Source: an uncultured Pelagibacteraceae bacterium
GTDB taxonomy: Bacteria; Pseudomonadota; Alphaproteobacteria; Pelagibacterales; Pelagibacteraceae
NCBI GenBank assembly: GCA_902554335.1
Contig: CACDOD010000003.1
Coordinates: forward strand, 1 to 64,000
Direction of reading: 5' to 3'
DNA length: 64,000 bases
Under the pieces are notes generated by a model that ran no database searches, was not told where the DNA came from, and saw nothing but the letters and a program-made list of their open reading frames with translations. Of this stretch, positions 35,804-63,338 are shown one piece after another. The translations under genes were made by a program, and so were the position numbers. Within the stretch, counting starts at the first letter, position 1; every line of letters starts with the position of its first letter.

Positions 35804-35889
35804 GCGGTCATGCTGAAACTGGTAGACAGGCACGGTTGAGGGCCGTGTGGGCCTAGCCCATGAGAGTTCGAGTCTCTCTGACCGCACCA
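35804..35889 (+). tRNA. tRNA-Leu (anticodon GAG), CCA encoded
   Basis: Acceptor GCGGTCA/TGACCGC, anticodon stem CACGG-TTGAGGG-CCGTG, long variable arm TGGGCCTAGCCCA, T-arm GAGAG-TTCGAGT-CTCTC, ACCA end. Confidence 0.97.
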
Positions 35890-35918: not shown

Positions 35919-35931
35919 GGGCGTTCTGTTG
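35919..35931 (+). repeat. Candidate att core, copy 1 (displaced tmRNA end)
   Basis: GGGCGTTCTGTTG, identical to 36581-36593. Confidence 0.7.
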
Positions 35932-35976
35932 TCCGTCCCAATTCAACTTATAACAGAATATAACACTTTTTGAATA

Positions 35977-35997
35977 GGTACATAGCAGGGTACATAG
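35977..35997 (+). repeat. Two GGTACATAG direct repeats (35977-35985, 35989-35997)
   Basis: Exact 9-mers, 12-bp spacing, followed by inverted repeat CATAGTT-A-AACTATG (35993-36007). Confidence 0.8.
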
Positions 35998-36061
35998 TTA
36001 AACTATGATTTCTTTGTGACGACTTTGTAATTGAGATTTTTTTCTGATATGTAATTCTCAA

Positions 36062-36484
36062 GTGAAATTAAATTGGATTATTTTTGTAACTGGATGGATG
36101 TCATTCAGAGCAGTTGGGTCAGGTTTGTTTTTGTTTTGGATCTTTACTGAAAATGAGCGTTCGGCACCATCCGAATGGATAGTTCCTTTTGTGGGCGACT
36201 TTTTTATTGGGATAACTGCTTTATTTTTAGTTTACCACATTATAAAAAAACCAAGCACTATACTATGGGGTCTTTTGCTGTCTTGGAATGTGATTGGTTT
36301 GTTAGATTTAATCGGGGCGATAAATGTAAGTTTTGTTGCTCCTTATGGACCTATACCAGAAATAGGATTTAATGAATTGGCAGTAAGATCTATTTTAATT
36401 TTAAATACTTTATTACAGATTTCTTGTATTTACCTATTGTTTCAAAAAGACATAAAAGAATATTTTAAAAAAAGTAAATTTTGA
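36062..36484 (+). CDS. Hypothetical small multi-pass membrane protein (GTG start)
   Basis: 140 aa with about four hydrophobic segments (WIIFVTGWMSF..., FIGITALFLVYHI, ILWGLLLSWNVIGLLDL, ILILNTLLQISCIYLLF). Confidence 0.65.
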   Translation: MKLNWIIFVTGWMSFRAVGSGLFLFWIFTENERSAPSEWIVPFVGDFFIGITALFLVYHIIKKPSTILWGLLLSWNVIGLLDLIGAINVSFVAPYGPIPEIGFNELAVRSILILNTLLQISCIYLLFQKDIKEYFKKSKF

Positions 36485-36497
36485 GTTTTGAAGGTAT

Positions 36498-36528
36498 GGT
36501 ACATAGTCAGTACATAGTAGGTACATAG
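36498..36528 (+). repeat. Three G/A-GTACATAG direct repeats (36498-36506, 36509-36517, 36520-36528)
   Basis: GGTACATAG, AGTACATAG, GGTACATAG at 11-bp spacing. Confidence 0.8.
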
Positions 36529-36579
36529 TCTTTTTACAAAATAATTATCGTTGATAGAGAAAGATAATAAATTATTTAA

Positions 36580-36840
36580 GGGGCGTTCTGTTGCCAGGTG
36601 CCCCAAACCCCGTTACTTAATTAATAAATTAATTAAGCTGCAAGTGCGTAACTTTCGTTAGCATTTGTAAAATTGCCCATTAAGGCGGAACAATACCTGA
36701 CGAAAGAATAACTTTTAGACACCCGTCGATCCTAATTCACCCCCGTTATTGAAAATGGTGGAGGTGGTGGGTACTGCCCCCACGTCCGTAATGGTTATTA
36801 CGAAATTCGTTTATCGCCATAGTTGGAAAACCAACTATAT
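36580..36840 (-). ncRNA. ssrA: Transfer-messenger RNA, circularly permuted two-piece alphaproteobacterial type; predicted tag ending (T)NANESYALAA
   Basis: Minus strand: acceptor piece ...GGACGTGGGGGCAGTACCCACCACCTCCACCA (3' end 36756), 11-nt spacer, coding piece GGGGGTGAATTAGGATCGACGGGTGT (5' end 36744). Acceptor stem GGGGGTG/CACCTCC pairs over 7 bp (one G-U). Tag codons ACA AAT GCT AAC GAA AGT TAC GCA CTT GCA GCT TAA (36668 to 36633). Terminal hairpin GGGGC..CTG-GCAA-CAG..GCCCC. Confidence 0.92.
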
Positions 36841-36904
36841 GATTATAAAAAAAAAGTTATTTTTTTCAACTTATTAATTAATTTTAAATTTTAATATTTC
36901 AGCC

Positions 36905-38527
36905 TTAAGGTACTGTTACTAATATTTTTTTACCCAGAATATTCATTTTAGAAAAACTATTTTTTCTTTCTTGGATCCAATCCATGTATTTGTAAATTTT
37001 ATCATTATGATAAAATTGATTATTTATAAACGGATTATATCCATAGCTTTGATTTTCTGAGACTAATCTATCTATATTTCGACCGAAAAAAATTATTAGT
37101 ACTATTACTAAGATTAATTTTGATTTTTTTTCAAATAAATAAAAGTTAATTGTACTACTATTAAAATAAAAAGAGATTGGTAAAAATATTAATAATGCAA
37201 TTAAGTGATATCCTCCATACCTTAATTGTGGATGTTTAAAAAACCACTCTAAAAAAATTACAAATAGGAAAATATAAATAAAAATAAACTTATTAAGATT
37301 GAACATATTATTTTTTTTAAAATTAGATTTTAAAAAAAATGTTAAATAAAAAATAAATATTAAAATTGCCAAACCTATTAAAAAGTCACTGACTTTATTA
37401 AAAAAATATATATTCATCCAATTTGGAAACCAATTCATTCCACTAATATAAAGCTCCTTATTTTCTACAGAAAAATTTGGCATAGCACCTGCTTTTGACC
37501 AAAGTTCAAACCACATATTATCGTGAATAATTAATCTTCTTGGTAACGACCAAGAAAGATCGTAGAAACAAATAAAATCTGCTGGATATATAATACATCC
37601 AGAATTAAAAAAATTATAAGTTAAATAAATAGTAACAAAAATTGCTGAGTAGAAAATTGAAAATTTTTTAATTATATCAATAAAATTTTTTCTCCAATAA
37701 TATAAAAAAATTAATCCCAAGGGCAGATATAGCAAATAAATAGATTTTATACTCACTAAGAAACTTAAAAGAATAGAAATAAATAAAAATAAATCCAAAT
37801 TATTTTTATAATTCTTATTTTGATTAATATTCCTCAAAATAACAAAACTGATTAAAATTATAATAAAAACAATTATCATGGCAGACCTATCTACGCCATG
37901 CTCACCAATTCTATAAAAAAAAATATTTATAAAAGAAAAAAAGATTAATGATAAAAAGTTTATTATTTTGAATTTATTAAAATTATTTTTAATAAAAATA
38001 AAATATACTAATATTAAATTTGCAAATCCTAAAACAAAAACAGGATATATCTGCATCAAATAAATCCCAGTTCCAGGCAAATAAAATAATGAGTTTAGAA
38101 AGAACAATGAAGAGGCATTTCTGAACCCGGGATTAACATGCCCCAAACCAATGGGATGTTCCATTTGTGTTAATAAATAACTGTATGGAAAGTGATAATA
38201 AGGAAAATCATCATGAGTTTTTGCTGAAAGTATAAAAATTATTAAAATTGTAAAAACAAATAAATGAGATTTAAAGTTTTTTTTTAAATCTAATGACCCT
38301 TTTTTTATTATCATAAGACATAACAATCCAAAAATTAAAATAATCGAATTAAAAATATAATTATGAACAAAAAAGGGTGCGGTCACATATGAAATAAATG
38401 TTAAAAAACTTAATCCATAAAAACCTAGAAAGCCAAAATTTCTTATTTTTAATCCTAAAATTTTAGAAAAAAATAATCCATAACCTACAATTGAAAAAGA
38501 TATTAGAAAATAATTAATAAAAAACAT
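36905..38527 (-). CDS. Large multi-pass membrane protein, GT-C glycosyltransferase-like (putative)
   Basis: 540 aa with many TM segments; HDDFPYYHFPYSYLLTQMEHPIGLGHVNPGFRN loop motif. Confidence 0.55.
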   Translation of the reverse strand: MFFINYFLISFSIVGYGLFFSKILGLKIRNFGFLGFYGLSFLTFISYVTAPFFVHNYIFNSIILIFGLLCLMIIKKGSLDLKKNFKSHLFVFTILIIFILSAKTHDDFPYYHFPYSYLLTQMEHPIGLGHVNPGFRNASSLFFLNSLFYLPGTGIYLMQIYPVFVLGFANLILVYFIFIKNNFNKFKIINFLSLIFFSFINIFFYRIGEHGVDRSAMIIVFIIILISFVILRNINQNKNYKNNLDLFLFISILLSFLVSIKSIYLLYLPLGLIFLYYWRKNFIDIIKKFSIFYSAIFVTIYLTYNFFNSGCIIYPADFICFYDLSWSLPRRLIIHDNMWFELWSKAGAMPNFSVENKELYISGMNWFPNWMNIYFFNKVSDFLIGLAILIFIFYLTFFLKSNFKKNNMFNLNKFIFIYIFLFVIFLEWFFKHPQLRYGGYHLIALLIFLPISFYFNSSTINFYLFEKKSKLILVIVLIIFFGRNIDRLVSENQSYGYNPFINNQFYHNDKIYKYMDWIQERKNSFSKMNILGKKILVTVP

Positions 38528-62609: not shown

Positions 62610-62653
62610 TAAATCTTAAAAAAATCTATAATGCAAATTTTATTGGGCTATGG

Positions 62654-62715
62654 TATAATAAGTACAAGATAGTCCTACTAAGCCATTTTTAGCTCCCGGT
62701 TCATTAGGACTATCT
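62654..62715 (+). promoter_or_regulatory. Extended -10 promoter plus 5'-leader hairpin of LysE-family gene
   Basis: TG-G-TATAAT (62651-62659), then AGATAGTCCTA (62667-62677) pairing perfectly with TAGGACTATCT (62705-62715), ATG at 62723. Confidence 0.55.
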
Positions 62716-62722
62716 CTGAAAA

Positions 62723-63338
62723 ATGTTCCCCCAAGATTTTATACTTTTTTTACAAATCATAATTTTCTTATTCATCACGCCTGGCACTCCGAGAATAGTT
62801 ATTATTTCTTATTCTATGAATTACGGGGTAAGAAATTGCATTTGGACAGCGCTGGGTGATGTAACTGCTAATTTATTTCAAGCAACTTTAGTAATTTTTG
62901 TTATAGGATCTTTTTTTTCTGATCATCCATTATTTTTTAAATACTTTTAAATGGATTGGAATAATTTACTTATGTTATTTAGCATTTGATATTTATAAAA
63001 GTATGCCAAAAGACATAGATTCGAAAAATTTTTCATCAAAAAGCTTTTTTTCTTTTTTTAAAGATGGATTTTTAGTTGCGGGAACTAGCCCTAAGGCTTG
63101 GATGTTTTTTCCATTTATTTTTCCACAATTTATAGATTTTTCAGGAAATTATGTTGCTCAATTTATTATTTTAATATCAACCTACATGATATTAGATTTT
63201 ATATCCCTTATAGGTTACGCAATCCTCGCAAACAAATTGATTATGTGGATAAAAGCAAATCCTAGAGTTATTAATTCAATTTCCGCGTGTGTATTAATAA
63301 TTATTGCTATAATTATTGCTCTTACTCAACAATATTGA
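62723..63338 (+). pseudogene. LysE-family translocator split by a +1 frameshift at the T-run 62945-62948
   Basis: ORFs 62723-62950 and 63003-63338 are one protein if one T is removed: ...HPLFFKYFKWIGIIYLCYLAFDIYKSMPKD... Confidence 0.8.

Follow-up and report, generated by a model that had tools for sequence, protein, structure and literature searches.

The closest precedent for the locus described here is provided by additive genomic islands with repeats of an RNA-gene end, such as the flexible genomic island fGI1 of 'Ca. Actinomarinales' (PMC7771536) and fGI-2 of the Methylophilaceae, with 20-bp tRNA-Lys repeats and a size range of 330 bp to 42 kb (PMC10872708). Tycheposons, found in Prochlorococcus and Methylophilaceae, are larger (4-200 kb), encode a tyrosine recombinase, and target tRNA genes (PMC10872708). 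The window analysed here consists of the first 64,000 nucleotides of contig CACDOD010000003.1 (GCA_902554335.1) of an uncultured Pelagibacteraceae bacterium (SAR11), in which an interval of 662 bp separates a tRNA-Leu(gag) gene from a permuted, two-piece transfer-messenger RNA (tmRNA) gene. This interval is probably an intact non-autonomous integrative cassette that would be moved by a tyrosine integrase acting in trans. As judged by genome comparison, it does not stand alone but belongs to a cassette family whose members are arrayed in tandem in many genomes of SAR11.

The permuted tmRNA gene (acceptor piece, intervening segment, and coding piece; tag ANESYALAA) was located at 36577-36873 on the minus strand by a match to the full alpha_tmRNA model (Rfam RF01849, positions 1-355, 215.5 bits); the ARAGORN tmRNA* call at 36542-36852 (minus strand) concerns the same gene. 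On the minus strand, its coding piece terminates in ...GGGGCACCTGGCAACAGAACGCCCC, the strongly conserved end of this piece being GGCACCTGGCAACAGAA. A 13-bp core belonging to this end, GGGCGTTCTGTTG, was present in two exact copies with a start-to-start distance of 662 bp, one at 36581-36593, representing the 3' end of the coding piece, and one at 35919-35931; no further match was found in the 64 kb, even at up to two mismatches. A chance origin of the repeat was rejected, as shuffled controls gave a mean of 0.33 matches at up to two mismatches. The original prediction, made from the letters of the window, had proposed this exact repeat and had assigned one copy to the tmRNA coding piece, and both statements were confirmed. 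It had also described the flanks past the cores as alike, which holds only weakly, as there is no more than a loose resemblance between the left half of the distal core (GGGACGGA) and the tmRNA half (GGGCACCTGG). Single-strand folding of the cores was unremarkable. Between the cores, where about 650 bp with one membrane-protein open reading frame (ORF) and no integrase had been read, an ORF of 140 amino acids was the sole sizeable one, and no integrase was found by ORF inspection, Pfam, or PADLOC. That the interval represents an insertion follows from a comparison with 297 Pelagibacteraceae genomes, in 253 of which the tmRNA was present. Indeed, seven genomes of the same genus (G069, G102, G124, G159, G247, G275, and G281) possess an empty junction with one core and no insert, in which the tmRNA end is followed by approximately 20-35 bp and then by tRNA-Leu(gag). 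The tRNA-Leu(gag) gene of the window (35804-35889, plus strand), which is the host neighbour on the far side, thus adjoins the tmRNA gene directly in relatives without the cassette. An uninterrupted junction of this kind had been named as the thing to look for, and the genomes did not display the converse, in which every relative would have kept the interval and none an empty site.

Alignment shows the same unit, with the same boundaries, at several loci. In two of the genomes with an empty tmRNA site, it resides between rnhA and the peroxiredoxin gene prx5 (G124, 94.7% over 697 bp; G159, 95.1% over 633 bp), and identity between the window and G124 extends from core to core and stops beyond. 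When public genomes were scanned with a 22-mer taken from the distal end module of the cassette, eight Pelagibacteraceae records were recovered, four of which, all SAR11 single cells, carry a copy of exactly 662 bp at rnhA-prx5. In a fifth record (AG-426-M19), the cargo and the distal end are found ahead of prx5, at the edge of the available stretch, and among the remaining records AG-422-A21 carries the 22-mer with different cargo in a tmRNA array. A search within the genus retrieved further copies of the unit at rnhA-prx5 in G598, G611, and G616. Moreover, the unit is the second cassette of a tmRNA array in G561 and occupies a third locus, between pnp and fabI, in G555 (L398, 640-1320). The element was accordingly found with identical boundaries at sites other than the tmRNA, which, together with the seven empty junctions, supports the earlier proposal of a non-autonomous element using the coding-piece end as attachment site (attB). 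A site at the stop codon of pnp was also seen in G040 (L129, about 7735). The genes that adjoin the known host sites, tmRNA, rnhA, and pnp, all belong to RNA metabolism.

The position of the crossover could be derived from the rnhA-prx5 locus. Empty sites with a single core, found in G597 and G604, read ..GGCACCTGG[CAACAGAAC]TGCCC.. (also ..CAACAGAACtgccc), whereas occupied sites read ..[CAACAKAAC]GCCCC-cassette on the rnhA side and cassette-TTGGGACAGA[CAACAGAAC]TGCC-host on the prx5 side, with the tgcc half distal and the gcccc half proximal. From this layout of the half-sites, exchange must therefore occur inside the 9 bp CAACAGAAC. In the window, these 9 bp correspond to 36585-36593 within the tmRNA-side attachment site GGGGCACCTGGCAACAGAACGCCCC (36580-36604, minus strand) and to 35923-35931 within the displaced core copy (CAACAGAACGCCC on the minus strand; 35919-35931), which combines the left half of the cassette with the old right half of the host. 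Two unrelated loci give these same 9 bp as the region of exchange, and it is always the right half of the cassette itself that lands on the anchor side. The comparison of empty and occupied sites thus shows that the cassette integrates precisely where the coding piece of the permuted tmRNA has its 3' end and that the strands are exchanged within CAACAGAAC. The incoming right half (GAACGCCCC) rebuilds the tmRNA 3' end and the old host half is moved to the far side, as the original prediction had supposed. The feature expected of an RNA-gene-targeted element, namely an RNA gene restored at one end and a displaced fragment at the other, is present. Ordinary homologous recombination between the tmRNA-end repeats would also shuffle cassettes and would make use of the direct-orientation repeats at every junction, and islands of SAR11 are known to undergo homologous replacement (PMC2217521). 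It is nevertheless a very improbable explanation, as empty and occupied sites share only about 9-25 bp, which is too short for efficient RecA exchange, the same 9-bp exchange is seen at two unrelated loci, and the homology of cassette copies at different loci ends at the core. The genome of the window itself harbours an array of two cassettes at rnhA-prx5 (G000:C27, locus L243, 512-1500), of which its relative G603 possesses only the second. The first cassette was therefore gained at the anchor-proximal core in the genome of the window. One cassette of this array displays TGGCACA iterons, and the 98-amino acid gene of the other resembles a gene in the tmRNA array of another genus (L127).

Related cassettes are widespread in SAR11. 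The site pattern GGGCGTTCTGTTGCNNGGTG, searched with at most one mismatch and with the reversed pattern as control, was found in 258 of the 297 genomes, the control giving 0 matches in every genome. According to a hand tally, 131 of the 297 genomes contained at least two sites, 61 at least three, and 31 at least four, and all copies had one orientation in 104 of the 131 multi-site genomes. The loci inspected contained tandem cassettes beginning at the tmRNA, and in G033 and G230 their number reached seven. Comparison across genomes thus shows that related cassettes form same-orientation tandem arrays at the tmRNA. The feature that characterises additive islands, an RNA gene at which several cassettes have accumulated and whose end is directly repeated with every one of them, is present as well. 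A survey of 77 tmRNA loci, chosen with a bias towards multi-site genomes, yielded 89 cassettes of 149-3381 bp (median 997 bp), with gGTTaagGGCACCTGGCAACAGAACGCCCCTT as consensus junction. Their cargo includes a superoxide dismutase, a restriction-modification set (HindIII-like endonuclease and methylase), a Mrr-like nuclease, an inverse-autotransporter-like protein, an exo/endonuclease-phosphatase, and many small unknown proteins, and several cargo gene families recur across different arrays. Among approximately 243 sampled Alphaproteobacteria outside the Pelagibacteraceae, an exact 16-mer was single wherever present, with the exception of one genome. In G096, a 13.6-kb segment with about 15 ORFs lies between two core sites (L134, 3958-17611); the same junctions may bound large islands also.

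A lambda-type attP consists of a core with a short overlap, flanked by arm-type repeats. The ends of the window cassette are reminiscent of this organisation. A distal end module of class A (TATTCAAAAAGTGTTATATTCTGTTATAAGTTGAATTGGGACGG; 35933-35976, minus strand) is 44/44 identical in G041, and a 22-mer of it is common to the 8 further public SAR11 records. It is followed by two copies of the 8-bp iteron GTACATAG (35978-35985 and 35990-35997, plus strand), and three more copies constitute the tmRNA-side arm (36499-36506, 36510-36517, and 36521-36528, plus strand). These five exact occurrences, which the original prediction had overlooked, are the only ones in the 64 kb, and the distal iterons are 12 bp apart and the proximal ones 11 bp apart. 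When the window is aligned with G041, which belongs to a different genus and carries unrelated cargo, only the two ends align. In many cassettes, 8-bp iterons with a spacing of 11-12 bp are found, and their distances from the core are fixed. The two ends of a cassette share one iteron word, whereas other cassettes have other words; words of other classes include GACGCA, GGACTCA, GACTCGTC, and TTCGGAAT. Using exact 7-mers, 21 of 84 cassettes had a repeated word near the tmRNA-proximal end (0.3 in shuffles), always with a spacing of 11 bp and a start 45-59 bp past the core. With mismatches allowed, the same word occurred at both ends in 37 of the 84 cassettes (shuffle mean 0.64, maximum 3 in 100 shuffles), and 11-bp pairs were present at both ends in 19 cassettes, as compared with 0 in 100 shuffles. 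The cassette that directly follows the tmRNA was overrepresented among those with matched iterons (25/37 versus 13/47, p = 3.8e-4). The end modules fall into classes with a conserved spacer sequence and differing iteron words, and one of seven distal modules is carried by 48 of the 89 cassettes. Cargo within a class is mostly unrelated (homology in 17/120 and 17/78 interior pairs). The end modules and the core may thus represent an arm-core-arm layout as in a lambda-type bipartite attP. The arms of the window cassette contain 2 + 3 repeats about one helical turn apart, these arm sites being inferred from sequence only.

The cargo gene of the window cassette (36062-36484, plus strand) has a GTG start, at the codon where its homologues begin with ATG, and encodes the 140-amino acid membrane protein, with four predicted helices and no match in Pfam or PADLOC. 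A structure model of low confidence (pLDDT 64) also displayed four helices. Homologues were present in 17 of the 297 genomes, and dN/dS values of 0.11-0.26 indicate purifying selection on the ORF. In several genomes, chromosomal homologues have a DNA identity of 95-98% that is confined to the ORF, which suggests that a clean ORF may have been transferred recently between chromosome and cassette. At L036 and L038-L041, the match spans the start codon to just before the stop codon, apparently next to trxB; it is possible that these trxB-side homologues offer a snapshot of gene capture into a cassette. A deletion remnant, to which a formerly larger tmRNA-associated prophage or island had shrunk, would explain the short size and the lack of an integrase, and remnant or decayed was how the original prediction had qualified the element. 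This qualification did not stand. The 662-bp length and the ends recur at other loci, in unrelated contexts and other lineages, both end modules and the iterons are kept, the cargo is under purifying selection, and scans of IMG/VR and public genomes turned up no larger element bearing these end modules, making a deletion remnant barely credible. A decayed prophage was ruled out by the independent integrations of the same short unit.

As to the recombinase, most SAR11 genomes, with or without arrays, encode one Xer/Cre-like tyrosine recombinase of approximately 317 amino acids and usually no other. It fails to reach the XerC, XerD, and integron integrase cut-offs (28-33 bits versus a cut-off of 265 for TIGR02249, IntI), and its gene is located far from the arrays. 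A recognisable pair of XerC and XerD was absent from most SAR11 genomes. The main rival explanation builds on this enzyme and is integron-like, in that the conserved host recombinase would act on the bare core and the iterons would be regulatory or accessory. In its favour, most genomes carry exactly one such enzyme, the core has inverted arms of 9-11 bp around a short centre (GGGGCACCT-GGCAACA-GAACGCCCC), and many small iteron-less cassettes look like an ORF plus a site. However, the gene is distant from the arrays and devoid of an IntI signature, no dif site for the enzyme could be recognised in SAR11, dif-like matches being no commoner than in the reversed control, and matched iterons at fixed distances from both ends are left unexplained. 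This explanation is hence considered unlikely. As for integrases from outside, phage-type integrases were encountered in a few SAR11 genomes (G056, G017, and G169 among them), none of them near a core. Three IMG/VR contigs with a GC content of 0.62-0.64 (L318, L336, and L342) have tyrosine integrase genes about 40-80 bp from the same permuted-tmRNA end, because of which integrases using this kind of attB appear to exist. These contigs apparently represent phages of other Alphaproteobacteria that use the same attB; one of them has phage structural genes nearby. On the AT-rich phage contigs L180, L183, L187, L190, L199, and L206, a phage-borne permuted tmRNA gene shares this 3' end and could provide an extra attachment site. 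Other IMG/VR contigs with the core GCAACAGAACGCCCC were chance matches or phage-encoded permuted tmRNAs, the two-iteron pattern gave 46 scattered matches in viral contigs, and a search of the INPHARED phages with the tmRNA end returned nothing relevant. Packaging or replication genes, as in satellites resembling phage-inducible chromosomal islands (PICI), were absent from the window cassette, and no helper was detected in IMG/VR by core or end modules.

Under the preferred explanation of a cassette mobilised in trans, the 662 bp would comprise, in order, an att half-site, the distal arm with two iterons, the membrane-protein gene, the proximal arm with three iterons, and an att half-site. The end modules would be putative arm-type integrase-binding sites flanking the core. 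A tyrosine integrase provided by a phage or another mobile element would excise and insert the cassette, the circular form having a predicted attP junction ..TTGGGACGGA-CAACAGAAC-GCCCCTTAAATAA.., and new insertions would take place mainly into the tmRNA-proximal site, leading to array growth. Element and core being separable, cassettes with different arm specificities would therefore share one target. Several observations weigh against this explanation. Firstly, no integrase was encountered in any cassette examined or near any SAR11 core site, and IMG/VR viral contigs yielded no SAR11-phage attP with these end modules or with an integrase. Secondly, in about half of the cassettes neither a class module nor matched iterons could be detected, and the length of some is just 225-350 bp; part of the family may thus do without arms. 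Thirdly, most genomes are incomplete single-cell assemblies, in which arrays and integrases may be missed. Lastly, the proposed mobility derives from comparison alone. More tentatively, and with slightly less than even confidence, SAR11 might share an integrase-less system in which small cassettes, dozens in number, differ in their arm-type iterons, use one tmRNA-derived core, and are moved within and between cells by the integrases of passing phages or other elements. If so, the variable iterons would record the helper of each cassette, and the tmRNA array would be a phage-driven counterpart of the integron.

SAR11 genomes are streamlined and contain few transposons, prophages, or integrons, yet they draw on a large flexible gene pool. 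In this respect, a very abundant marine bacterium seems to possess an integron-like gene-swapping site. The defined core, the cassette ends, and the matched arm repeats offer a concrete, testable route of gene entry, specifying where genes enter, in what order, and which proteins should be sought, and the coding-piece end of a two-piece tmRNA is used as the integration target. Furthermore, GGGGCACCTGGCAACAGAACGCCCC can serve as a simple marker for counting cassettes in single-cell genomes and long-read metagenomes. The literature searched, which covered few subscription journals, contained no description of such cassette arrays at the tmRNA of SAR11. Elsewhere in the window, the other flank of the tmRNA gene is variable too. 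A gene for a 540-amino acid membrane protein (36905-38527, minus strand) lies between the 5' side of the tmRNA and thyX, and its region had no homology cover in any of nine relatives compared. A match to the Rfam rhtB sRNA (RF01814, 66.9 bits) was located at 62650-62728 on the plus strand.

Compared with known systems, the SAR11 cassettes combine features of several of these. Like the islands and prophages of the Islander class, which depend on tyrosine integrases (PMC4383910), they use an RNA-gene end as attB, with the gene restored and a displaced fragment at the far end; unlike these, they lack an integrase, measure 0.2-3 kb, form tandem arrays, and use the coding-piece end of a permuted tmRNA instead of the acceptor (CCA) end. 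With tycheposons they have in common that they are cargo-carrying integrative elements at RNA genes of streamlined marine bacteria, but membership was rejected, given the 662 bp of the window cassette, the tmRNA target, and the absence of a recombinase. They resemble integrons in their tandem, same-orientation cassettes of one or a few genes, their single anchor with anchor-proximal insertion, and their promiscuous cargo. In contrast to integrons, however, the arrays possess neither IntI nor attI nor structured attC sites of 55-140 bp, their core is a short sequence derived from the tmRNA, and arms are present on both sides in many cassettes. Regarding attC features (R''-L''-L'-R', GTTRRRY), no GTTRRRY core was seen in the ~30-bp site consensus GTTaagGGCACCTGGCAACAGAACGCCCC, as judged by inspection and with no attC covariance model run; SAR11 hypervariable regions have likewise been reported without attC (PMC2217521). 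Integron membership was hence rejected, only the Cre/Xer-like 317-amino acid recombinase being present, without IntI and without an attC-type consensus. The additive islands differ in that the SAR11 target is the coding-piece end of a permuted tmRNA and not a tRNA, that the SAR11 cassettes display conserved end modules and matched variable iterons and lack a recombinase, and that their site also works at rnhA-prx5 and pnp-fabI. Both nonetheless consist of small cassettes at the end of an RNA gene in streamlined aquatic bacteria, each leaving a direct repeat and carrying mostly unknown cargo.
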